The position numbers and the translations under genes are program-made. Positions 3,024-14,373 of a stretch of 64,000 nucleotides of DNA are shown here, in pieces; position 1 is the first letter of the stretch, and each line of letters opens with the position of its first letter. The notes under the pieces are model-generated. The model was not told the DNA's origin and made no database searches. It saw only the letters and a program-made list of their open reading frames with translations. Source of the DNA: Gordonibacter sp. 28C (lineage in GTDB: Bacteria > Actinomycetota > Coriobacteriia > Coriobacteriales > Eggerthellaceae); contig NZ_PPTR01000001.1 in assembly GCF_003339845.1 (NCBI RefSeq), forward strand, positions 1 to 64,000. Direction: 5' to 3'.

Positions 3024-3098
3024 AGCTCTTAACTGCTCTTAACTGCTCTTAACTGCTCTTAACTGCTCTTAACTGCTCTTAACTGCTCTTAACTGCTC
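3024..3098. repeat. 10-bp tandem repeat array between two defence-like genes
   Basis: The unit AACTGCTCTT is repeated six times in full from 3031 to 3090, flanked by partial units from 3024 and to 3098. It covers the last codons and stop of the upstream minus-strand gene and ends about 34 bases before the start of the ATPase gene at 2990. Because 10 is not a multiple of 3, and because each unit brings TTAAG-type stops in shifted frames, copy-number change would not extend the upstream protein far. It would change the spacing to the downstream gene. Confidence 0.95.
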
Positions 3099-4591
3099 GA
3101 TGCCATTTCATAATACTGGGCGGGATCCGTCTTATTTCTCCCTCGCCAGACAAGAACGTTCTTATCTACCAGCCCTTTCAAGGTGCGAGTCGCGGTTAAT
3201 TTCGACACTCCGGCCTGAGTTGCCAAAAGGGCGGTTGTAACGCGCCCTTGCTCGGCAACCAAGCGCAAGGCGACTTTCTCGGTGTCGTTCATTTGGGAAT
3301 ACAGCTCAAGTGAAATAGCACGGCTTTTGCCTTGGGCCAAGAAGTCGCCGTTCACCTCGTCGGGAGCCGTTTCACCCGAAAGCGGCAGAAAGATAGTCGA
3401 GCGCTCGGGATTTATCTGCTCGCTGAGCACGGGGGTTCCGTATCCTGCCTCTGTCCAGTTCTTCACCATGTTAGGGATGCCGCTGCCGGCGCGCTCCCCG
3501 ACGTGCACGAGCGTGAACATCTTCATCATCGTCTCGTTACGCGGATCGGAGATGCCTCCTGCGTAGGCGTCCTCCACGCTCACGCGGAACCCTCCCGGGT
3601 TCGACAGCTTGAGCCCGTTTTCCTGCCAGAGCAAGACCACGCCGCGACGTTCGTTGTAGTCGGCGTTGGTGAGGCAGTTGGCTATAGCCTCCCTCAGTGC
3701 CTCGTGCGCAGAGGTCTCGTCAACACGAAGGCTGTTCTCGTCCAGTTTGAAGGGCACCTTCAGCGCTTGGCGCATCTTCTCGTACGCTCGTTGGTAGAAG
3801 CCGAAAACGTTGCCGGGCCACTCGTCAGTCTGAGAGGTGACGCGGTCCTGCCAGCGCGTTTCGGGGCTCGTCTCTTGGCGGTAGTCGAGGAAGTAGTGGG
3901 GGAATTCCCCCATGATGCGCCATTCCTCGCCGAACATGAGAAGACCTGCGCTCGTTGGATGCGCCTTGCCATCTTCGCCGATGCACGCGGCACCGATGCG
4001 ACATAGGAACTCCTCGTTGGGCAGATCCTTCCAAGCGCTACTCTGGTGGTATAGGTCGTATCTCCTGCGGTAGGAGTCCACGGTCTCCGTGCTCAGGTCG
4101 GTCACGGAGAGGCTTTCGTGCAGCCTCAGATCGGCTGATTCGTTCGAGGCGTCGCGGTACATCGCCTCTATTTCGCTCATCCCGCACGAATAGTCTCCCG
4201 TGTGATCGCGTCGGTAGGTTCCCCTCACTGGGTTGCCGCTGATATACACGGGCCTCTGCTGCCTCTTCGCCCTCGGAACTTCGATGACGAGCACGTCTTT
4301 GCCGTCGATACTCTCAATGCGGACGTCCTTGTCGGCAAGCACGCAAGGGCTCAGTTTGTCTGGGCTGTGCGCCGCGTTCCAGAAGTCATCGGCCATCCTG
4401 TGGGCATCTTTGAGGCCGACGACTTCGAGTGCCTTGTCCTTCCGCTCGGCCACGCCGAGCAGAATGATCCCGCCGTTCGTGTTGGCAAACGCGGAGACGC
4501 TCGCCCAGATGCTCCGGGGCAAGCCTCCCTGAGCCTCCTTCGCCTCCAGGCGGTTGCCCTCTTTGTAGCTATCGAGTTTGCTCAGATCCAC
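3089..4591 (-). CDS. AlbA_2/Schlafen-type ATP-binding protein with winged-helix end
   Basis: The N-terminal part (E-AKEAQGGLP...AFANTNGG-ILLGV) is the AlbA_2 or Schlafen DNA-binding fold. The middle has the HATPase_c_4 region with NCLTNADYNERRG and the G-box ERAGSGIPNM. The C-terminal about 70 residues form a winged helix (TTALLATQAGVSKLTATRTLKGLVDKN contains the recognition helix). The family is usually described as transcriptional regulators or helicase-like proteins found beside defence genes. The GTG at 4591 has AAAGGA five bases upstream and is preferred over upstream GTG and ATG codons at 4636 and 4618, which lack a good site. This gives 500 aa. Its last three codons (SSS) and stop fall in the tandem repeat, upstream of the RloC-like gene on the same strand. 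Confidence 0.8.
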   Translation of the reverse strand: MDLSKLDSYKEGNRLEAKEAQGGLPRSIWASVSAFANTNGGIILLGVAERKDKALEVVGLKDAHRMADDFWNAAHSPDKLSPCVLADKDVRIESIDGKDVLVIEVPRAKRQQRPVYISGNPVRGTYRRDHTGDYSCGMSEIEAMYRDASNESADLRLHESLSVTDLSTETVDSYRRRYDLYHQSSAWKDLPNEEFLCRIGAACIGEDGKAHPTSAGLLMFGEEWRIMGEFPHYFLDYRQETSPETRWQDRVTSQTDEWPGNVFGFYQRAYEKMRQALKVPFKLDENSLRVDETSAHEALREAIANCLTNADYNERRGVVLLWQENGLKLSNPGGFRVSVEDAYAGGISDPRNETMMKMFTLVHVGERAGSGIPNMVKNWTEAGYGTPVLSEQINPERSTIFLPLSGETAPDEVNGDFLAQGKSRAISLELYSQMNDTEKVALRLVAEQGRVTTALLATQAGVSKLTATRTLKGLVDKNVLVWRGRNKTDPAQYYEMASSS

Positions 4592-4738
4592 ATGCGTCCT
4601 TTCCCGCGTCTGTTTCATTCTACCAGCAACACGCACACCGTTTCAGCTTGCGGGCGCTTTCGCATCGCATCGACGCAGCGGGCGCGACCGATCCGTCGCT
4701 TCCTGCGACCTCCTCCGCGCGCCTCGCCCCGGCGGCCT

Positions 4739-4910
4739 TGGAACCCGCATGCTCGGCCGGGAACCGGGCACCGCGCAAGGGCCGCGAAAACTTTCCGGCA
4801 GGGCGGCGCGCCCGTCCAAGGCCTCCCGAAAACTCGAAGCCCTGGCGGGTTTCGCTTCCTCCCTTGCGCGGTGCCCGAACCCCGGTCGGAGCACGGGCCA
4901 CAAGGCCCGC
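4739..4910 (+). promoter_or_regulatory. Structured leader, copy A (before ParB-like gene)
   Basis: A 16-bp perfect stem (GGGCACCGCGCAAGGG at 4766-4781 with 4861-4876) is flanked outside by CCGGG/CCCGG across an AACC/GAAC internal loop. Inside it is GCGAAA/TTTCGC and a variable GC-rich apical region. Copies B (about 6886-7030) and C (7926-8100) share the architecture and the fixed bases CAAGGG, GCGAAAA, TTTCGC and CCCTTG, while other stem bases change with compensation. The element ends about 40 bases before an AGGAGGTCA ribosome site. I do not recognise the family. A cis-regulatory RNA or stable leader is inferred. Confidence 0.7.
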
Positions 4911-4950
4911 CCAGAAGGGGCGAGGCCGAACCGAACAGGAGGTCAAGAAA

Positions 4951-6264
4951 ATGGAAACGACCAAGATCCCGCTCAACCAGTGCATCGAGAGCAAGCTGCA
5001 GAACCGCACGAGCCTGGGCGACGTGTCGGGGCTGGCCCGCAGCATCGAAGTGAACGGCCAGATCACCCCGCTCATCGTGGTGGCCGACGGCGAGACCTAC
5101 CAGCTGGTCGCGGGGCACCGCCGAACCGCGGCCATGAAGAAGCTCGGACTCGAGGAGGCCGACGCCTACGTGATGGACGGCTGGGACGACGCGCGCATCG
5201 CGCGGGTGCTCAACGCCGAGAACAACCACCGCAAGGACCTCACCGAGGCCGAGCGCGGCCAGGGCATCCAGACGATGCTCTCGCTCGGAGTCCCGGTGGC
5301 CGACGCCGCCGTGAGCGCCGACGTGGACGAGGGCAAGGCCGAGGCGTACGTGCGCGGCTCCAAGCTGGTGCCGGTGGACGCCGTGAACCTGGATTTCGAC
5401 GCCGTGGCCCTCATCGGCGAGTACGACGACGTCCTCACCGAGGACGACGTGGTGAAGGTGTTCTCCAAGACGAATCCGTGGGATCGCTTGGAGGTCTGCC
5501 GCAAGGCGCGCGGCCGCGCGAACAAGGAGGCGCTCGCGGAGAAGCTCTCCACCGAGGGCATCAAGGTGGTGGAGCGCGCCGACGTCGAGGGCATGCACTG
5601 GTGCGACGGCGAGTGCGGCCACGACGGGATGGTCGCGGTGGTGAGCACGACCTACTACGGCGAGGCCAGCGCAAGCTACTACTGCGACGACGCGGAGCAC
5701 GTGCACGAGCCGAGCGCCGAGGAGGTCGCAGCCGAGGAGGCCTTCCAGAAGCGCACGGCGGCGTACGACGAGCTTCGGGAGCACGCCACGGGGTTCGCCA
5801 AGTCCATCTACCCGAAGTTCCCCGGCAAGGGCCATACGAAGCTGCGCCAGTGGGCGCACGAGGCCTTCGAGGCGCGCTACGGGTGCGAGGCCGACGACGC
5901 CTGGGCCGACGTGAAGGAGCCGCGGGGCAAGGCGCTCGACCAGTTCGTCCTGATGCGCACCGTTCCGGAATGCGTTCCCGAGCTTCCCTGGGGAGCGCTC
6001 AGGGACGGGTTCGAACCCTCCTACTACTCGCTCGACGATCTGCTCGGCTTCGTCTCCTTCGTGGACGACATCCTCGTACCCGCAGGCTACGAGCCCACGT
6101 CCGACGAGCTCGAGGTGATGGAGCACCTGCACGGCATGTTCTCCGACGAGGACGGCGAGGCGACGGGCGAAGCCTTCGAGCCTGCCGATGCCGAAGCCGA
6201 CGAGGGCGACGAGCCTCCCTTCGACGCCGACGAGATCGTCGCGCCCGCCGCGATGGCGGCCTGA
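4951..6264 (+). CDS. ParB/Srx-fold nuclease-like or partition-like protein
   Basis: The N-terminal about 150 residues have the ParB fold: a PLNQC strand, QITPLIVV at 38-45 and the signature GHRRTAAMKKLG from 55, then a helix-turn-helix-like stretch (ENNHRKDLTEAERGQGIQTML). The rest is acidic. It holds a possible metal site with CDGECGHDG, YYCDD and paired His residues, and an Asp/Glu-rich tail. The 437-aa length is longer than a chromosomal ParB, and no ParA is adjacent, so I see an accessory-element ParB-like protein rather than a segregation pair. The start is fixed by AGGAGGTCAAGAAAATG. It follows structured leader A and is followed by a hairpin and the DUF3846 gene. Confidence 0.8.
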   Translation: METTKIPLNQCIESKLQNRTSLGDVSGLARSIEVNGQITPLIVVADGETYQLVAGHRRTAAMKKLGLEEADAYVMDGWDDARIARVLNAENNHRKDLTEAERGQGIQTMLSLGVPVADAAVSADVDEGKAEAYVRGSKLVPVDAVNLDFDAVALIGEYDDVLTEDDVVKVFSKTNPWDRLEVCRKARGRANKEALAEKLSTEGIKVVERADVEGMHWCDGECGHDGMVAVVSTTYYGEASASYYCDDAEHVHEPSAEEVAAEEAFQKRTAAYDELREHATGFAKSIYPKFPGKGHTKLRQWAHEAFEARYGCEADDAWADVKEPRGKALDQFVLMRTVPECVPELPWGALRDGFEPSYYSLDDLLGFVSFVDDILVPAGYEPTSDELEVMEHLHGMFSDEDGEATGEAFEPADAEADEGDEPPFDADEIVAPAAMAA

Positions 6265-6280
6265 CCGCATATGCCGACAA

Positions 6281-6312
6281 GGCCGTCCGGCTCCATCCAG
6301 GGCCGGTCGGCC
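6281..6312. other. Intergenic hairpin between ParB-like and DUF3846 genes
   Basis: GGCCGTCCGGC pairs with GCCGGTCGGCC as two 5-bp blocks around a T.T mismatch, with a loop of about nine bases. No T-run follows, so it may slow transcription, stabilise a processed 3' end or be an incomplete terminator. It lacks the CAAGGG/GCGAAAA features of the leaders before neighbouring genes. Confidence 0.5.
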
Positions 6313-6338
6313 TCCTTCCCGCAGAAAGGACTCCTCCC

Positions 6339-6812
6339 ATGAAACCGACTTTGAACGTGATGATCGCGCCCGTGGGGCGCGCGCCCTACGACAAGACGCT
6401 CGCGGCAGACGAGCACGGCGGCTTCCTCCGCGCCCTGCAGTCTTGCGTCGGCGGCCACATCGAGCCTATGGATTACCTCTTCGACGACGCCCCGGCCGTC
6501 TACTGCAACGCGGAGGGAAAGATCGGATCCTCGCTCTTCGAGGCGAACCGGGCCGTCTACGCGACGAGGGAGATGGCCGAGGCCGGATACGCCAGCCCGA
6601 GCGACCCCGACCGCGCCGTCGTCGAAGGCGAGCTCTTCGACGTCGTGTTCGGCGACATGGTATGCGTCGGCTTCGATGCCGAGACGGGCGAGAGCCGCGA
6701 CGTGACGGAGGCGGAATGCGCGCGCGTCGTCGAACGCTTCGCGTCTCCCGATTCCATCGGGTCCGGCAGGCGCGAGGTTCTCCGCATCCTGCTCGGCGGC
6801 GAGAGCCGGTAG
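6339..6812 (+). CDS. DUF3846 domain-containing protein
   Basis: This 157-aa protein has the order of conserved blocks I associate with DUF3846: LRALQSCVGGHIEP (residues about 30-43), a central VYCNAEGKIG, a following N-R-A motif and a C-terminal VVFGDMVCVGFDAETGE. The family is common on plasmids, integrative elements and phages. Its function is unknown. The ATG at 6339 follows AGAAAGGACTCCTCCC, a modest ribosome site. It sits 75 bases after the ParB-like gene and before structured leader B, probably in the same transcription unit as the ParB-like gene. Confidence 0.75.
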   Translation: MKPTLNVMIAPVGRAPYDKTLAADEHGGFLRALQSCVGGHIEPMDYLFDDAPAVYCNAEGKIGSSLFEANRAVYATREMAEAGYASPSDPDRAVVEGELFDVVFGDMVCVGFDAETGESRDVTEAECARVVERFASPDSIGSGRREVLRILLGGESR

Positions 6813-6885
6813 AGTGCGAGACGGCATCCCGACCTCCCATACGCCCCCTCCGCGCCCGGCCTCCTTCTCCCGTGCACCGCCTTGG

Positions 6886-7030
6886 GAGCATGCTGCCCGA
6901 ACGGCTCCCCGAGGCGCAAGGGACGCGAAAAACCTTCCGCTGACAAACCAAGCTGGCGACCGAAAGCTCAGGCCTGCGGTTTTCGCTTGACCCCTTGCGC
7001 CCCGAAGCGCCGTCCGTGCGGACGCGCGAC
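6886..7030 (+). promoter_or_regulatory. Structured leader, copy B (before orphan 221-aa gene)
   Basis: GGCGCAAGGG at 6913-6922 pairs with 6992-7001. ACGGC at 6901-6905 pairs with GCCGT at 7009-7013. GCGAAAA from 6925 pairs with TTTTCGC at 6980-6986. Compared with copies A and C the sequence has diverged most, but the fixed CAAGGG/CCCTTG and GCGAAAA/TTTTCGC pairs and their order are kept, with the inner pair lengthened compensatorily. It is followed by the strong site AAGGAGGTCACC before the ATG at 7083. Confidence 0.62.
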
Positions 7031-7082
7031 CCAAGGAGGCGCCCCGGAAGAGGAGGGCGCCGCGACTCATAAGGAGGTCACC

Positions 7083-7748
7083 ATGGGAAACTGTGCCGTC
7101 ATCACCACGCGCGAGCGCGAGATCGGCGTCTACCTGCACTGGAACGGAGGATGCGACACCGTGGAGCCGCTGCTGAAGTACTGCGAGCTGCAAGGCTACC
7201 GCTCGCCGAGCTCCGACGGCTACGGCTGGGCGCGCATGTGCCAGGTGATGGGCAACTACTTCGGGGGATCGCTCTCGCTCGGCATCGGCGACTACACGAC
7301 CGACAAGCGCATGAACCCCGGCGACAACGGCATCTACGTCATCGAAGGCTGGAAGATCGTCGATCGCATCTATGCCTACGGCGATCCTTACGAGCAGCAA
7401 GTGTACGACTTCGATGACATGTTGCGCGAGTTCGACAACGCCATGCCCGAGCGTCTGCGGCTCGGCGAGTTCCTCGATTCGGTGGAGGTGCCGGCGGACG
7501 AGGTCCGGCTGGGCGACGAGGTGTGGCTTTTCGGAGTCGGCGGCACGTGGGAGGCCTATCCCGTCGTGGGGTTCGGCCAGCCCAAGACCAACCGCATAGC
7601 CGTGTGGATCGACGCGCCGGACGGCAGGCGCGAGGTCACCTACCCGGACAGGCCCTACGCCGCCAGGTACGACCACGACGGCGACTTCAGCTGGAACTCG
7701 AACAACTACGTGCACGGCGACACCGCGCGCATCAAGCCCCGCGTGTAG
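7083..7748 (+). CDS. Hypothetical protein of the accessory element (221 aa)
   Basis: I do not recognise a named domain. The protein is soluble, acidic and aromatic-rich, with no signal or membrane segment. The N-terminal half (VYLHWNGGCDTVEPLLKYCELQGYR and WARMCQVMGNYFGGSLSLG) looks like a small alpha/beta unit. The C-terminal third (LGDEVWLFGVGGTWEAYPVVGFG) looks like a beta-barrel or SH3-like unit. The start at 7083 is certain from AAGGAGGTCACCATG. Upstream is structured leader B and downstream a terminator-like hairpin at 7774. Its linkage to ParB-like, DUF3846 and YraN-like genes suggests a maintenance or anti-restriction role on the element, but nothing in the sequence proves it. Confidence 0.75.
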   Translation: MGNCAVITTREREIGVYLHWNGGCDTVEPLLKYCELQGYRSPSSDGYGWARMCQVMGNYFGGSLSLGIGDYTTDKRMNPGDNGIYVIEGWKIVDRIYAYGDPYEQQVYDFDDMLREFDNAMPERLRLGEFLDSVEVPADEVRLGDEVWLFGVGGTWEAYPVVGFGQPKTNRIAVWIDAPDGRREVTYPDRPYAARYDHDGDFSWNSNNYVHGDTARIKPRV

Positions 7749-7773
7749 GCGAGCGCCCCGCGCGATTCTCTAC

Positions 7774-7807
7774 AGCCCGTCAGCCCAAGCGGCTGGCGGG
7801 CTTCTCT
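7774..7807 (+). terminator. Rho-independent-like terminator after the 221-aa orphan
   Basis: AGCCCGTCAGCC and GGCTGGCGGGCT form a 12-base stem with one mismatch around CAAGC, followed by a T-rich tract (TTCTCTT). It lies 25 bases after the stop at 7748 and separates this gene from leader C. Confidence 0.65.
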
Positions 7808-7925
7808 TCGCTTCTCTTATCCGTCGGCGCCTGTGCCCCGGCCGCCGTATCGGATGCCGCCGCAATCGCCCCAGGACTTCCGCTCCCGCTTCCGACCTCC
7901 CGCGCATCGGCCCGCCCCTGCCGCC

Positions 7926-8100
7926 TCCGAACCCGCATACTCGCCGAGAACCGCGCACGGCCGCAAGGGCCGCGAAAACTTTCCAGGACGGTCCAAGAGG
8001 GCGCCTGGAAACTCGGGCCCTCCGGGTTTCGCTTTTCTCCCTTGCGGCCGTGCGCGAACCTCGGCGGCATCCGGGCCACGAGGCTAAGCCATCGGGGCAG
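7926..8100 (+). promoter_or_regulatory. Structured leader, copy C (before YraN-like gene)
   Basis: The outer helix is GCGCACGGCCGCAAGGG at 7953-7969 with 8039-8055, a perfect 17 bp. Outside it CGCCGAG/CTCGGCG (7942-7948 and 8060-8066) pairs across the same AACC/GAAC internal loop as copy A, and both differ from copy A by compensating changes. Inside are GCGAAA/TTTCGC and a further 8-bp stem, TTTCCAGG/CCTGGAAA. Left and right margins (GAACCCGCAT-CTCG and GGGCCAC-AGGC) are also shared with copy A. The element ends about 25 bases before CAGGAGGTCAACCATG. Confidence 0.7.
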
Positions 8101-8125
8101 GCCGACAACGATCAGGAGGTCAACC

Positions 8126-8518
8126 ATGAAAGAGCTGAAGACAAGGGCCGTGAAAGCCGCAAGCACGTATCTCGATCACCGGGGCTACACCGTGCTCGAG
8201 GTCGGTTGGAGAAGCGAGGCGGGGACGGCCGACGTCATCGCGGAGGACGGGGATGCGCTCGTCTTCGTGAAGGTGCGAGCTCGATCCGGCGCAGAGGCCG
8301 GGTTTCCCGCCGAACGACACAGTGCTTCCGAGCGCGCCGTGCGCGAGCGGGTTGTGATGACCTACCTCGCCCAGCACGATGCCGTCGACATCCCCATCCG
8401 CTTCGACGACGTGAGCCTCGTCGCCATCTCGCCCGACCGCGCGATGATCCGCCACCACATCAACTCCCTGTGCGCGGATATCGAGCTCCCCGAAGAAGCC
8501 CTCCCGGAGGTCGCCTAG
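8126..8518 (+). CDS. YraN-like (UPF0102) putative nuclease
   Basis: The 130-aa protein shows the YraN pattern: LDHRGYTVLEVGWRSEAG, then TADVIAEDGDALVFVKVRARS. This is the restriction-endonuclease-like core with Asp and E/K-type residues, except that the usual E-x-K reads VKVRARS here (K for E). A helical part and a C-terminal strand (VSLVAISPD) follow. YraN proteins are housekeeping Holliday-junction-resolvase relatives of uncertain role. A copy on an accessory element with its own structured leader is unusual. The substitution at the usual acidic position may mean it is not catalytic. The start follows AGGAGGTCAACC, and a strong terminator follows. Confidence 0.75.
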   Translation: MKELKTRAVKAASTYLDHRGYTVLEVGWRSEAGTADVIAEDGDALVFVKVRARSGAEAGFPAERHSASERAVRERVVMTYLAQHDAVDIPIRFDDVSLVAISPDRAMIRHHINSLCADIELPEEALPEVA

Positions 8519-8600: not shown

Positions 8601-9740
8601 TCAAGAAGAAGGGGCTTCGTCTCCCTGAATCATGGAAGCCGTTAGAAAACCGAAAATGGCACGCTCCATTTTTGTCTTCATCGTTCGAATATTATCGTAG
8701 CTTCCGGCATGATCAACAAACCAGCTTTCGATGTTTGAAGCTTTGACAGCAGCCTTGTCATCCGCATCGAGATAGCCGAGGATCTTTTCGTAATGACGCT
8801 TTACAAGAACGATCTTCTCGGTAGCCGAAAGATCCTCAAACTCGATACAGGCGCTAATGCGTGAAAACATTGCAGGTCCCAACGCGCTTTGAATTTCATC
8901 CGTCGAATGGAAGTTGGAGGTTAGGACGAATAGGGCATCCTGCATCTCGACGCGATAATAGGAATCAACAAAGACCCCTTCGTCGAATAACTCGTAGAAG
9001 GCGTTGTACAGCCCATGATTCACCTTGTCAAACTCGTCGAGCAGTACAACATTTGACTCGCGCCCCAGAAGGTCTCTCGCGAAGCTCCCTTTCGAATGCT
9101 CGGCTCCGAAGATATAGTCGTAGGCCTCGTTGTTCTGAAGCATGGAGAACTGCACCCGAGTCAACTTTCCGCCCAATGCTTCACTCACGCACTTTGCTGT
9201 CTCCGTTTTACCTACTCCCGATGGCCCATAAAAAAGCAGGACAATAGGCCTTTCGTCCCGCATAGAAGAAAGTTGGTAAAGGCTCGCCGCTATTTCTTGC
9301 TTGCTGGTCGCCTGACCCAAGACCGTCGAAGCCAAGTCCGAGTAGATCCTTTTTATCGAATTCTTTTCCACATGGGGATAGACCGTTCCCACGTATTCTA
9401 TTTCATCTGGAAAGGCGGCTATAAGCGAATGGAGCGACTGTTTGGGAGGGTTCTGGACGTAAAGCTTGTTAAACGTGCATCCTTGCGTTGCGATCGTGGC
9501 GAAATTGCTAATCACATGACTTACCACGGAGCCGAAGTCTGCGGCTCTGACTACAACACTGTCGAACTCGTCTTCAATATGCGGTTCGCCTCCGGCGTAT
9601 TCTTGCGTCGCTCGGATTTTTGCGTTGTAGAGAAGAATCAATTCGAGAAAGTCAACGGAATTGCAGGGGTCGTCGATCCTGTCCTTAAGGAATGCTTCGT
9701 AGTCCTTATCGGAGCCAGTGAAAACTATGATCTTAGGCAT
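8601..9740 (-). CDS. AAA+ ATPase (Clp-like AAA_2 core) of a two-gene system
   Basis: This 379-aa protein has an N-terminal domain of about 130 residues of unknown type (MPKIIVFTGSDKDYEAF start). A AAA+ module follows with Walker A GPSGVGKT at 172-179, Walker B VVLLDEFDK at 231-239, a sensor-1-like LTSN and an arginine-finger-like FSRIS. The core resembles Clp/HslU remodelling ATPases, but there is no Clp N-domain or second module. The ATG at 9740 overlaps the end of the upstream gene by eight bases, so the two are translationally coupled. Codon use is AT-richer than the flanks. I infer an ATP-driven effector of a defence or stress system; the target is unknown. Confidence 0.75.
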   Translation of the reverse strand: MPKIIVFTGSDKDYEAFLKDRIDDPCNSVDFLELILLYNAKIRATQEYAGGEPHIEDEFDSVVVRAADFGSVVSHVISNFATIATQGCTFNKLYVQNPPKQSLHSLIAAFPDEIEYVGTVYPHVEKNSIKRIYSDLASTVLGQATSKQEIAASLYQLSSMRDERPIVLLFYGPSGVGKTETAKCVSEALGGKLTRVQFSMLQNNEAYDYIFGAEHSKGSFARDLLGRESNVVLLDEFDKVNHGLYNAFYELFDEGVFVDSYYRVEMQDALFVLTSNFHSTDEIQSALGPAMFSRISACIEFEDLSATEKIVLVKRHYEKILGYLDADDKAAVKASNIESWFVDHAGSYDNIRTMKTKMERAIFGFLTASMIQGDEAPSS

Positions 9741-10593
9741 CGTGTCCAGCCACCCCCGCAAGGATCACATCGTACATCTCGTAAGGCGTTGTTCTTTCGT
9801 CGAGTTGCTCGGTTTTTTCAGAAGGCTTTCCTTTTGACAGGTTAATCGGATAGTCTGGATTTTTCTGGTTGCTCGAAGATGTGAATTTCAGCTCTTTCTC
9901 TATATCGAGCGAATCTATTGAAGACTTTCCGACCAATACCGCGTAGATAACGAGATCCATCTTTAGGAGATCCGGCAGCTTGTAGTTGTTCTTGAACGAG
10001 CTATGGTTGAATCGCAAGATAATAGGAGCCTCATCTTGTTTCTTGGCTAGAAACTCGTAATACCCTTTTGCCTTCCGTATGGCATCGTCGATTCTGTCGA
10101 GCGAGAGATTGAAATCACCAGCGGGAATACCCTTGCCGCTTCGGAGCATCGTAAGGTAGGGTGTTATCAGCATCATGCTCGACATCGCGTTGTCGATCGC
10201 GGACACTTCATAGCCTTCGAGCTTTTTGACCGCCCCTCTGCTCTTTTCGACGCAAGCAAGAAAATCAGTCAGTACGGTGTTTGTTATGATGTTTCGAGCA
10301 ACCTGGTTGGAGCTGAACGAGGAGGATAGGGACGCCTCTCCCTCAACCGACGCCCCGACGCCCATAAGCCCTTGTATGATCTTACCTAGTCCTACTTTCG
10401 CTTCGACCTGCATTCCGGCATTGCCGCTTGCGGTGTCTGTGTCGAAAAGCTCCAGCGTTCTTTCCAAGTTGCCGTCATGGGTCATTTGAATCAAATCCGT
10501 TGCGGATCCTTCATCGAAGTAGGCGATTTTACTCAGCTTCGCAGAATTCGGGTTTTGATCGTCCTGATCGCTTCGTATTTTCTTGCTGCTCAC
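9733..10593 (-). CDS. DUF6414-like protein, partner of the AAA+ ATPase
   Basis: The 286-aa protein opens with a disordered basic-acidic stretch, then IAYFDEGSATDLIQ, a pattern I associate with DUF6414. A glycine/serine-rich helical region (GVGASVEGEASLSSSFSSNQVARNIITNTVLTDF includes it) comes next, then an alpha/beta part. There is no transmembrane segment. It starts at a GTG preceded by AGAGGG and ends eight bases inside the AAA+ gene. The fixed order and overlap suggest that it is the sensor or substrate adaptor of the ATPase. Family assignment is from memory and moderate. AT-richer codons agree with horizontal acquisition. Confidence 0.65.
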   Translation of the reverse strand: MSSKKIRSDQDDQNPNSAKLSKIAYFDEGSATDLIQMTHDGNLERTLELFDTDTASGNAGMQVEAKVGLGKIIQGLMGVGASVEGEASLSSSFSSNQVARNIITNTVLTDFLACVEKSRGAVKKLEGYEVSAIDNAMSSMMLITPYLTMLRSGKGIPAGDFNLSLDRIDDAIRKAKGYYEFLAKKQDEAPIILRFNHSSFKNNYKLPDLLKMDLVIYAVLVGKSSIDSLDIEKELKFTSSSNQKNPDYPINLSKGKPSEKTEQLDERTTPYEMYDVILAGVAGHDA

Positions 10594-10621: not shown

Positions 10622-11371
10622 TTAAGATCGGACGTAAGAGGAGGCGATCAGTTCGGCCATGTCTTCTGCGGTTACGCGTAATCCTAAGTTCCTCATCATG
10701 TTGTCGTCCCAAGGACGCGCTTCGACGAAGCGGAGTACCTCGTCGACGATGCTTGAAGGCAGCTCGACTCGCGTGCCCGGCTCGAAGAGTGCGCAAAGGC
10801 GCAAAACATCTCGGCGATGCTTATTGATCTCGTCGCTGTGCACGCTCTTTCCCTCCGTCTTGTCCCTCGTGAGATTCGCCCATGCATGTATCTTGAAGAC
10901 GGGGAGATAGTGGAGCCCTAACACCGGGAGCCCGTCTATCTCCTCGATTCCCCGCTCAAGAAGCTCGTAGTACTCGTCGTCGAGGAGTATCGCCGAGAGG
11001 CTTCCCGCAGCGTCGATGGTTCGAAGCCTCCCCAGGTCGGCTTCTATTCCCTCCAGGTACTCCGGGCGCTTGCTCAGAAGCTCGATCTTGGGAGGAAAGT
11101 CCTCCATGTTGGGATTCTCGAAACGGTAGAGAACGTACTTGTCCGCCTTGCTTTTGTTGCGATAGTCGCCCTCTCGTACGAAGGAGACGAACCTTTTGTA
11201 GAATTCCTGGTCGAACGCTTCGGCCACGATGACCATGTCGATATCGTGGGTGGCGCGCTCGGGAGCGCCGTATTGAGCGAATACGAGGTTGCATGCCGTG
11301 CCGCCGATGACGACGTATCTCGACTGATAGTCCGCGAACCACTTCCTAAAGATGTCTAGTCCTCGTACCAT
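10622..11371 (-). CDS. AbiEii-like nucleotidyltransferase toxin
   Basis: The 249-aa protein has the nucleotidyltransferase fold: YVVIGGTACNLVFAQYG (residues 19-35) with the glycine motif, then the metal pair in THDIDMV (D43, D45), and a later helical region as in AbiEii/AbiGii toxins. Such proteins transfer nucleotides to tRNA or other targets and work with a winged-helix antitoxin (type IV toxin-antitoxin, phage abortive infection). The ATG at 11371 follows GGAGG at seven bases, and the gene overlaps the antitoxin by 16 bases. No substitution in the visible catalytic residues is apparent. Confidence 0.82.
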   Translation of the reverse strand: MVRGLDIFRKWFADYQSRYVVIGGTACNLVFAQYGAPERATHDIDMVIVAEAFDQEFYKRFVSFVREGDYRNKSKADKYVLYRFENPNMEDFPPKIELLSKRPEYLEGIEADLGRLRTIDAAGSLSAILLDDEYYELLERGIEEIDGLPVLGLHYLPVFKIHAWANLTRDKTEGKSVHSDEINKHRRDVLRLCALFEPGTRVELPSSIVDEVLRFVEARPWDDNMMRNLGLRVTAEDMAELIASSYVRS

Positions 11372-12315
11372 TCGCAATCCTCCAATGCTTTCCGAAGCGC
11401 CATCGAGATACGCTCGTCCTTTTCGCCTACGGTTGCAAGCATGGTGAAGGGATCCACCATGCCCGCCAAGGAGAACGGAAGGGGGTCGTAGCGCAGGACT
11501 TGGACGTCGATCTTTTCTTCGCCGTCATCCCCTGACTTGCCGAGGTCGCCTGCCGAAGCCGATCCTGCGGCGACGGTCCTCCGCTTCGGAGCCACGAGGT
11601 CGCTCCGCATGGCAAGGGCGGACAGCCCGCTGCTCGGACTCGCTGTAGTCAACGGGGAAGCGGACACAGTAAGGATTCTTTTGACGGGGTCTCCAAACAG
11701 CTCCCTGCCGCGACGGAAAAACTCTTTTTTGTCTGGCACGAAGTAGTACCGCTTCCGCCCCGTCCTACCGCCTGCCGTGTAATCGACAAGGCCCATGTCA
11801 GCCAGCGACGAGAGTGCTCGCGAGGCACCTGCGGCCGACATGCCGGTCGCCTCGCGAAGCCCCTCTTGGGTGAGTGGCTCACGGCCGTAAAGGCAGTAGA
11901 GGAACGCCTGCTGCTGCGAGGGGCTGAATCCTCGCGGGCGGAGGCTTTCGGAAGGAGGATTCGCTTGGAGCGCAATGGCGAGCTGAGGCAGATACAGGTC
12001 TCCCTCTCGGGTGATGAAGCCCTGGCGGCTCTTCATCAGATCCTTTCTTCGAGCGGGGGTCGCGCTGCGCAGGTAGGCGGCTACGGGTTCGCCGACGGCT
12101 TTGGCAAGGGCTTGCAGGCGCTTTTCCGCGCCGTCGGTATCGGCGACATCTTCGGCGACGATGATGTCTTGGCCGAGCACGCGCGCCTGGTACAAGTCGA
12201 AACTGGAGGCGAGGAAAGGACTGAGGGGGGCCACGCCGTCCAGCTCGCCAACGACCGCCGCGTCGTCGATGACTCGGTGCAGGATCCTCTCGATGGTCAA
12301 AGAGACGCTTTTCAT
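11356..12315 (-). CDS. AbiEi-like winged-helix antitoxin/autorepressor
   Basis: The central region (LTQEGLREATGMSAAGASRALSSL with a following wing GGRTGRKRYYF) is a winged helix. The C-terminal part is long and contains a Ser/Ala-rich linker and a conserved-looking alpha/beta tail ending in ALEDCEWYED. Type IV antitoxins repress their own operon and counter the nucleotidyltransferase. The ATG at 12315 is chosen because GGAGGA lies directly upstream. The 319-aa length is above the common 200-270 aa. It is immediately followed by, and overlaps, the toxin gene. The inverted repeat at 12330-12373 is its likely operator. Confidence 0.78.
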   Translation of the reverse strand: MKSVSLTIERILHRVIDDAAVVGELDGVAPLSPFLASSFDLYQARVLGQDIIVAEDVADTDGAEKRLQALAKAVGEPVAAYLRSATPARRKDLMKSRQGFITREGDLYLPQLAIALQANPPSESLRPRGFSPSQQQAFLYCLYGREPLTQEGLREATGMSAAGASRALSSLADMGLVDYTAGGRTGRKRYYFVPDKKEFFRRGRELFGDPVKRILTVSASPLTTASPSSGLSALAMRSDLVAPKRRTVAAGSASAGDLGKSGDDGEEKIDVQVLRYDPLPFSLAGMVDPFTMLATVGEKDERISMALRKALEDCEWYED

Positions 12316-12329
12316 GCTTCCTCCGATAT

Positions 12330-12373
12330 AATATTCCAATATCGCGTTTAATGTTCCATCAATATGGAATATT
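12330..12373. promoter_or_regulatory. Inverted-repeat operator of the AbiE-like operon
   Basis: AATATTCCAATAT at 12330-12342 is matched by ATATGGAATATT at 12362-12373 on the opposite strand with one base of slip. A third TTCCA half-site lies between them. The site is 15 bases upstream of the antitoxin start, as expected for autorepression by an AbiEi-type protein. Confidence 0.7.
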
Positions 12374-12394: not shown

Positions 12395-12694
12395 AAAGGT
12401 GGTTCATCCCTTCAGTCCAAACTCCCAGACAAAGCCAAACAAAGCAAGAGGCCTGCTCTGTGCGCACAGCGCGCGAGCAGCTCTTGGATGCCGGCATTCC
12501 ACGTCGCGGAAGCCCACGACCCCGCGACATTAGTCGGGTGTCGCGGGGGTTCCGCGGGCGGCATCGCAGCCTAGCGCGAGGCGACGCCTCTGCGCTAGGC
12601 TTCATGCGGGGGATTCCCCGCGCCCCTGGCAAAGGGCGATACCCGGCTGCCCGCTTCCACGTCTTTCGGGCGGCCACGATGCAAAGGATGCCGA
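12395..12694. other. Hairpin-rich region, candidate origin of transfer
   Basis: No gene is apparent in these 300 bases. Two strong hairpins lie in tandem: CCCCGCGACA at 12520-12529 with its complement at 12539-12548, and GCCTAGCGC plus AGGC arms at 12569-12600. The position, directly upstream of the MobC-like and relaxase genes, fits an oriT, where a MobC protein opens the DNA for nicking. A nick site cannot be named from sequence alone. Confidence 0.45.
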
Positions 12695-13105
12695 ATGGAC
12701 AAGTACCCGCGCCGCATCTTCGTGCGGATGACAGACGACGGCCTCGCGCACGCCCGCACTGTCGCGGACTCCGCGAACCTTACCCTCTCGCAGCTCGTGC
12801 GCCTCCTTCTGGACGGCGCGGGCGCCGAGGGCGACATGCCGCCGGCCCTCGTCGTGGTGGACCGTGCGACCGCCGTCAAGATCTCCCGCGAGATGCGGCG
12901 GTGGGGGCACCACTACAACCAGGCCGTGCATGCCTTGAACGCCATCGCCTACTACCTGCGCTCAAACGACATGGACGCGCCCGACGTCCTTGAAGAGCTC
13001 GGACGGGCCTCGGCGAAGCTCGAGGCCATGCAGCCGGGCGTTGCGAAGCTAAGGGCCGAGGCGGAGAGGATCTCCGACCGCACGATAGCGCCGCTCGGCA
13101 GGTGA
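12695..13105 (+). CDS. MobC-like relaxosome accessory protein
   Basis: The 136-aa basic protein begins with a ribbon-helix-helix-like segment (PRRIFVRMTDDGLAHARTVADSANLTLSQLVR includes it). It continues with WGHHYNQAVHALNAIAYYLR, a pattern typical of MobC/MbeC plasmid mobilisation proteins, which bind oriT and help the relaxase melt it. A C-terminal coiled region follows. Start context is weak (GGATGCCGAATGG). The gene ends in a GTGA/ATGA-type overlap with the relaxase, showing a coupled operon. Confidence 0.8.
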   Translation: MDKYPRRIFVRMTDDGLAHARTVADSANLTLSQLVRLLLDGAGAEGDMPPALVVVDRATAVKISREMRRWGHHYNQAVHALNAIAYYLRSNDMDAPDVLEELGRASAKLEAMQPGVAKLRAEAERISDRTIAPLGR

Positions 13106-14373
13106 GCCGCATGCCGATGCTCAAGACCATATCGGGCCACACCTCAACGCGCGGGATATGCCGCTATCTCACCAAGAAGAACCGGGCCCTCGCGAGCGAC
13201 TACCTCAACATCGACAACCCCGATCTGGAGCACCCGGAATCGGCCTTCGACTGGGCGGCCGTCATGGACGGGACGCGCCACTCCTTCGGCAACGACGTTC
13301 CCTGGCGGGGACGGCGCGTGCGCACCTACAAGCACTACGTGGTGTCGCCCGACCCGAAGGACCGCATCGAGCTTCCCGCCCTGCGAGAGCTGGCCGTCGC
13401 GTGGGCGGCCGAGCACTTCGGCGACTTCGAGATGGCGATCGTCTACCACGACGACAACGAGCACGGCATACCTCACGCCCACTTGATCGTGAACAACACG
13501 AACTTGGAGACGGGCAGGCGCCTGCAGGACCCCGATCCGAAGGCACTCGCCGCCTCGCTTCAGAGGATGGCCGAAGAACGCGGGCTGAGCGCCCTCAAGT
13601 CCCCCGAGCCGAGCGGCGTGGCCGCCCGAGCTGAAAGGCGCAGCCCAAGGGCGCGGCCCTCCACCTATCGAAGCGAGTACGTGCGCCGCGCCGAGAAGGA
13701 GCTGCAGGATCGCGGCGAGTACTCGTGGACCGCCGACATCAGGGCGCGCGTGCGCATAGCCCGCTCGGTCTCTCGCAGCGAGCCCGAGTTCCGAAACCTG
13801 CTCGGCACCCTGGGCGTGACCGTATCGGACAACTCGCCCCGCACCCCGCGCCGCGACTGGATCTACGCGCTTGCCGACCACCCGACGTGGCGCGTGAGCG
13901 GCGAGCGGCTCGGGCTGTCGTACGGGCGCGAAAGGCTCGAGTCCCTGCTGCGTTCGGGCGGCATGGGAAGGATCCCCGAAGAGGGCGAGAGCGCGGTGGT
14001 CGACGTCGCGCGGAGGGCCGTCGAAGTCGGAAACCTCGAGGAGCTGAGCCTGCTTTCGAAGGCGGTCGCCCTCATCGAAACCGCGAGGGTGTCGAGCCTC
14101 GCCGACCTGGACGTCCTAGCCGCGCGCAATGCTTCTCTAGACGCACGGGACATCGCCGTGGTCGCCAGCTACGCCAGGGCGATGAAGATCCTTCCCGAGC
14201 AACGCCCCGCGCTGCAGCCCCGAAAGCCCGCAAGCGCGAGAAACGCCCACCGGGGCGGCGCTGCTTCCGAACGGGACTCAAGAGGAGCCATCGCAGACGA
14301 GCGAGCCACCCGAGGCGACGCGCCGCCTGCTTTCAACCGACAGCAGGACAGAAGGGAAGACAAGGGCAGATGA
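13102..14373 (+). CDS. Relaxase/mobilisation nuclease (MobA/VirD2 family)
   Basis: The 423-aa protein opens with LKTISGHTSTRGICRYLTKKNRALASDYLNI-type sequence, the relaxase family N-terminus. It carries the metal-binding three-His motif in HGIPHAHLIVNNT at about residues 123-135. The catalytic Tyr is probably among the N-terminal tyrosines (CRYL). After about residue 170 the sequence becomes basic and Arg-rich, with a disordered tail. It nicks oriT and pilots the strand in transfer. No coupling protein or type IV secretion gene is visible nearby, so the element appears mobilisable rather than self-transmissible within this window. A GTG at 13102 overlaps the MobC stop; an ATG at 13111 is the alternative. 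Confidence 0.85.
   Translation: MSRMPMLKTISGHTSTRGICRYLTKKNRALASDYLNIDNPDLEHPESAFDWAAVMDGTRHSFGNDVPWRGRRVRTYKHYVVSPDPKDRIELPALRELAVAWAAEHFGDFEMAIVYHDDNEHGIPHAHLIVNNTNLETGRRLQDPDPKALAASLQRMAEERGLSALKSPEPSGVAARAERRSPRARPSTYRSEYVRRAEKELQDRGEYSWTADIRARVRIARSVSRSEPEFRNLLGTLGVTVSDNSPRTPRRDWIYALADHPTWRVSGERLGLSYGRERLESLLRSGGMGRIPEEGESAVVDVARRAVEVGNLEELSLLSKAVALIETARVSSLADLDVLAARNASLDARDIAVVASYARAMKILPEQRPALQPRKPASARNAHRGGAASERDSRGAIADERATRGDAPPAFNRQQDRREDKGR

Follow-up and report, generated by a model that had tools for sequence, protein, structure and literature searches.

What is the function of a long hairpin that is repeated before one accessory gene after another? The question arises in the first 64,000 nucleotides (nt) of contig NZ_PPTR01000001.1 of Gordonibacter sp. 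28C (the window), where three copies of the same structure precede accessory genes. A preliminary description of the sequence took them for an unrecognised structured leader, possibly a regulatory RNA. Our analysis suggests instead that the copies probably belong to a separate and apparently independent family of single-stranded DNA (ssDNA) promoters in Coriobacteriia, predicted here from sequence, which would serve the establishment genes of conjugative or mobilisable elements.

The hairpin family and its pairing

The three elements, A, B and C, lie essentially where they had first been placed:

4734..4908, minus strand: element A, hairpin predicted on the presumed transferred strand; covariance-model score 133.5 bits; folding free energy with DNA parameters -71.4 (4726-4925)
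6875..7041, minus strand: element B, predicted hairpin; 95.5 bits; folding free energy with DNA parameters -55.1
7922..8086, minus strand: element C, predicted hairpin; 157.2 bits; folding free energy with DNA parameters -70.7

Common to all three are a CAAGGG/CCCTTG helix, a GCGAAA/TTTCGC segment (GCGAAAA/TTTCGC in the preliminary description) and a variable apex, and A and C share an AACC/GAAC internal loop; all of these had been reported before and are found in the sequence. An outer helix, GCCTTG/CAAGGC, is additionally present in A and B and has a variant form in C. All three copies fold better than their dinucleotide shuffles (z -5.75, -2.48 and -5.12). The structure was rightly called unrecognised, as a comparison with Rfam gave no family matching the elements.

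Among the genomes sampled, the hairpin family is confined to Coriobacteriia. Copies were found by BLAST in 44 of 138 genomes of the same family, Eggerthellaceae, and a covariance model matched 88 of 398 genomes of the class, with more than 100 copies and three further families represented. A sample of the phylum gave matches in 10 of 396 genomes, all within the same order. Named genomes with the core pattern belong to Adlercreutzia, Enterorhabdus, Parvibacter, Hugonella, Olsenella and Atopobium; a lone match in Aliiroseovarius is at chance level. The core pattern was absent from viral contigs, and a plasmid collection yielded only one partial match.

Our working set comprised 57 copies gathered from BLAST-positive genomes, 53 of them aligned. 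Pairing was tested with anchored arms; RNAalifold gave a consensus of 15 pairs only, because the arms slip in the MAFFT alignment on which it was run. For the helix that adjoins GCAAGG, 58% of the pairs within a copy are Watson-Crick; swapping partners between copies lowers this to 38% (maximum 44%), wrong registers give 29-34%, and up to four pair types occur per position. The pairing is therefore real and covaries across the family: helices that differ in sequence yet stay paired, which had been noticed in the three copies, extend to their homologues beyond the window.

A promoter signature in one arm

When the 3' arm of the minus-strand hairpin is read from the apex, TTGC (the complement of GCAA) is present in nearly all copies, and xAxxxT follows exactly 17 or 18 nt later in 51 of 53, other spacings occurring in 0-4 copies. 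Arm shuffles that preserve composition give this signature in a mean of 2.1 and a maximum of 8 of 53 copies. It is found in 20 of 20 lineages below 70% identity, and at the equivalent place in the opposite arm in none of the 53 copies. In 53 held-out and more distant copies, mostly from other genera or families, the pattern occurs at 16-19 nt in 39, with 17 the commonest spacing. The corresponding features of the window are:

4773..4778, minus strand: -35 TTGCGC of A, in the 3' arm of the minus-strand hairpin
4749..4754, minus strand: -10 GAGCAT of A, spacer 18
6914..6919, minus strand: -35 TTGCGC of B
6890..6895, minus strand: -10 CAGCAT of B, spacer 18
7961..7966, minus strand: -35 TTGCGG of C
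7937..7942, minus strand: -10 GAGTAT of C, spacer 18
4898..4905, plus strand: predicted start block CCACAAGG of A, with the A at 4900 as approximate putative +1, judged from hairpin geometry and 3'-arm conservation
7029..7036, plus strand: equivalent block ACCCAAGG of B
8076..8083, plus strand: predicted start block CCACGAGG of C, with the A at 8078 as approximate putative +1

Sigma-70 promoters are recognised by sigma most strictly at A-11 and T-7. In the alignment, no columns of that arm other than T-7 and A-11 of the -10 are invariant once the core is set aside. With DNA parameters the pairing probability is 0.93 for the -35 and 0.59 for the -10, the least paired element. Upstream of the -35, where an UP element would lie, is an A/T stretch, AAAAGTTTT, and the CCACAAGG block is conserved in the template-side arm, where transcription would begin.

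Two copies that lack T-7 (L014 and L040) have neither AGGAGGTC nor an intact gene downstream; promoter and gene at these loci look as if they had decayed together. A longer variant of about 212 nt, present at L106, L107, L108 and L141 in other genomes, has xAxxxT at 20-21 nt, and bulges in its stem may keep the helical distance.

We propose that each copy acts as an ssDNA promoter carried by a conjugative or mobilisable element. The minus strand would enter the recipient as ssDNA during conjugation, and a copy on it would fold back into a hairpin of about 170 nt whose stem recreates a double-stranded promoter, with the -35 TTGC in a paired segment and, 17-18 nt further on, a poorly paired -10 (xAxxxT). 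The 3' arm would serve as the non-template strand and the 5' arm as the template. Host RNA polymerase would start near CCACAAGG and transcribe the gene that follows while the complementary strand is still missing. ParB-like, UPF0102, MGNRAVITT, SSB and similar establishment genes would in this way be switched on at entry. In double-stranded DNA (dsDNA) the identical -35/-10 would face away from the gene, so that expression would be transient. If this is true, the protective genes of the element could be switched on at once when it enters as a single strand.

A second layer of control may be provided by the ribosome site, AGGAGGTCA, which stands before the start codon and is one and the same for all three copies, as had been observed before, and nearly constant across the family. 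A complementary GACCTCC lies 25-35 nt before the hairpin, with at least 7 matching bases in 50% of copies compared with 6% in shuffles:

4707..4713, plus strand: GACCTCC of A, complementary to the ribosome site
4937..4945, plus strand: ribosome site AGGAGGTCA of A
6831..6837, plus strand: GACCTCC of B, complementary to the ribosome site
7072..7080, plus strand: ribosome site AGGAGGTCA of B
7894..7900, plus strand: GACCTCC of C, complementary to the ribosome site
8114..8122, plus strand: ribosome site AGGAGGTCA of C

GACCTCC matches its own ribosome site as well as those of other copies, no difference being visible because the site is constant. An mRNA started in the hairpin would begin with some 50 nt of leader in which the ribosome site is present and GACCTCC is not; an mRNA read through from upstream would carry GACCUCC, which could pair with the AGGAGGUC ribosome site. 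GACCTCC may in this way silence read-through mRNA. We speculate, with some doubt, that this is an independent Actinomycetota family of ssDNA promoters with a two-step lock, in which the promoter would exist only in ssDNA and GACCUCC would mask the ribosome site in read-through mRNA from dsDNA, so that the gene products would appear only during the first minutes after entry into a new cell.

Gene content, orientation and rival explanations

The genes behind the three elements are:

4951..6264, plus strand: ParB_N domain protein, 437 residues, after A (PF02195, 5.8e-8)
6339..6812, plus strand: DUF3846 protein, second gene after A (4e-15)
7083..7748, plus strand: MGNRAVITT family protein, 221 residues, after B; no Pfam, PHROGs or PADLOC family
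8126..8518, plus strand: UPF0102 (YraN-like) protein, after C (2.3e-12)

MGNRAVITT is a conserved family of about 220 residues named for its N-terminal start; the predicted fold (mean predicted local distance difference test score, pLDDT, 81) gave no clear match in the PDB. Across the hairpin family the genes behind the copies are unrelated to one another and include ParB_N, UPF0102, MGNRAVITT, amidoligase-like, SSB and DUF3846 proteins. One element, L132 (G133:C17:20500-29000), has six copies within 8 kb before six genes, one for SSB, one for UPF0102 and several without a Pfam family, and this region is a candidate establishment island.

Downstream of the hairpin block the window has, on the same strand, a small gene and then a MobA/VirD2-type relaxase gene:

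12444..12488, no strand assigned: candidate origin of transfer (oriT) GCAAGAGG, an inverted repeat with GCAAGAG/CTCTTG flanks and CTCTTGG, conserved before the relaxase in relatives (L052-L056, L060)
12695..13105, plus strand: small gene just before the relaxase, in a MobC-like accessory position; weak RelB-type match below cut-off
13102..14373, plus strand: MobA/VirD2-type relaxase (PF03432, 1.8e-12)

For 72 copies a relaxase gene lies within 30 kb. Of these copies, 67 point to the relaxase and 65 are on its strand (binomial p about 7e-13 for the same strand, relatedness ignored; one copy was counted twice in the second tally). As a rule the relaxase gene enters last, the leading strand running leftward from the oriT before it (PMC11541004). 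If this holds here, the minus strand would be both the transferred strand and the template of these genes.

Other indications of the strand were considered and set aside. The inverted repeat before the relaxase is conserved but symmetric, and gives neither nic nor strand. The minus strand folds better in 52 of 53 copies, but shuffled controls account for 11.9 of the 15.0 kcal/mol, and we rejected the difference as evidence because it is mostly base composition. In a quasi-independence table A.C pairs (71, 57 expected) and G.T pairs (28, 16 expected) are both in excess.

Several points weigh against an ssDNA promoter. The transferred strand is presumed from the usual relaxase-last rule (PMC11541004), and wobble pairs do not identify that strand, since both kinds exceed expectation. 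Five of the 72 copies face away from the relaxase closest to them, and for seven the relaxase is on the other strand. The spacing is missing in 14 of the 53 distant copies, some of which are accounted for by mis-anchoring, and beyond the key bases the -35 and -10 match TTGACA/TATAAT poorly. As pLS20 shows, structured repeats ahead of establishment genes may also be something other than ssDNA promoters (PMC8708921).

The main rival is a leader in plus-strand mRNA, as first described or resembling EGeRS1 of pLS20-family plasmids: transcripts from upstream would fold, and would stop transcription or mask the ribosome site via GACCUCC until some factor relieves it. The frequency of GACCTCC before the hairpin and the near constancy of the ribosome site would suit such a leader, and EGeRS1 does block read-through from upstream (PMC8708921). 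Nevertheless, G.U pairs are no commoner in the pairing register (5.0%) than in wrong registers (5-9%), which speaks mildly against plus-strand RNA. No consensus promoter was found upstream in the window, and its dsDNA sequence showed no rightward sigma-70 site before the three genes. A leader also leaves the one-arm -10/-35 signature unexplained and has no Rfam counterpart, and we consider it unlikely. What stands of the preliminary description is a conserved, covarying, multi-copy regulatory structure before accessory genes; its role as an RNA leader is not supported, in view of the G.U pairs, the signature on the opposite strand and the lack of a recognisable rightward dsDNA promoter.

The same hairpin-promoter anatomy would be expected of a single-strand origin, at which RNA polymerase would use the folded transferred strand to make a primer for second-strand synthesis, with gene expression as a secondary effect. 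Frpo is presented as serving transcription and primer synthesis in the title of Masai and Arai 1997, as cited in PMC11541004, and a functional single-strand origin has been reported for ICEBs1 (PMC4595007). However, the copies are numerous within an element, and each stands immediately ahead of a gene whose ribosome site is strong, which makes an origin of this kind improbable here. An ordinary dsDNA promoter on the minus strand, giving antisense RNA or leftward transcripts, is very improbable: the identical -35/-10 would indeed read leftward in dsDNA, but to the left of B and C there is nothing except the antisense of the preceding gene, the copies keep their place with respect to the rightward gene, and such a promoter does not explain why the arms pair.

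The hairpin block is flanked by defence cargo on the minus strand (384-2990, 3089-4636, 8601-10593), which includes an AAA_13 protein resembling PADLOC PDC-S06 (1.9e-168), a Schlafen AlbA_2 protein and a pair resembling DolB/DolA (3.8e-121, 6.7e-74). Two adjacent minus-strand genes at 10622-12339 look by eye like a nucleotidyltransferase-type toxin-antitoxin pair, the first having no Pfam match.

Comparison with known systems

So far ssDNA promoters have been described mainly in E. coli-type (enterobacterial) plasmids, and outside these they are mentioned only as candidates (PMC11541004). In the literature on Eggerthella or Coriobacteriia we found no report of ssDNA promoters or of the hairpin motif. 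How the establishment genes of Gram-positive elements are expressed at entry is largely an open question, which the fixed promoter geometry in more than 100 copies makes testable in gut Coriobacteriia. The hairpin may also serve as a flag for establishment or possible anti-defence genes of unknown function, such as MGNRAVITT, UPF0102 and DUF3846.

Like the hairpins described here, EGeRS1 is a structured sequence that recurs immediately ahead of the ribosome sites of several establishment operons in a Gram-positive element (PMC8708921). It differs in being several hundred nt long and in that its authors identified no promoter in the fold, whereas the Coriobacteriia hairpins carry a promoter signature; they also argue that the transferred strand of pLS20 is the non-template strand and cannot be the template (PMC8708921). 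The single-strand origin of ICEBs1 is likewise thought to act on the transferred ssDNA of an integrative conjugative element (PMC4595007), but it serves replication, while the Coriobacteriia hairpins occur in many copies, each before a gene.

In its working, the closest known system appears to be Frpo of the F plasmid, where Frpo1/2 drive expression on entry in vivo (PMC9849209). Frpo/ssi of F and ColIb-P9 is similarly a long hairpin on the template strand; its stem rebuilds a -35/-10, and an A/T-rich segment lies close to its apex (Masai and Arai 1997; PMC9849209; PMC11541004), and several copies precede establishment genes (SSB, ParB-like) that point to oriT. SSB is a classical Frpo-controlled gene (PMC11541004). 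The leading genes of F (ssb, ParB-like, antirestriction) point to oriT, and upstream of ssb the minus strand is predicted to fold into a hairpin whose apex is A/T-rich; promoter-like sites occur in its 3' arm and not in the mirror arm. In the Coriobacteriia family we likewise find a stable hairpin whose stem, in the folded strand, contains a -35/-10 positioned for transcription of the gene that follows, and the hairpin precedes genes for SSB, ParB_N and others of the establishment or anti-defence kind. The Coriobacteriia hairpins differ in being about 170 nt long and GC-rich with a branched apex, in lying beside MobA/VirD2-type relaxases and in the added GACCTCC facing the ribosome site, and they have no sequence similarity to Frpo/ssi (best match with the F plasmid 8.3 bits, E 1.1). 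Because sequence homology is lacking, we regard them not as members of Frpo but as a separate family that would work like it.

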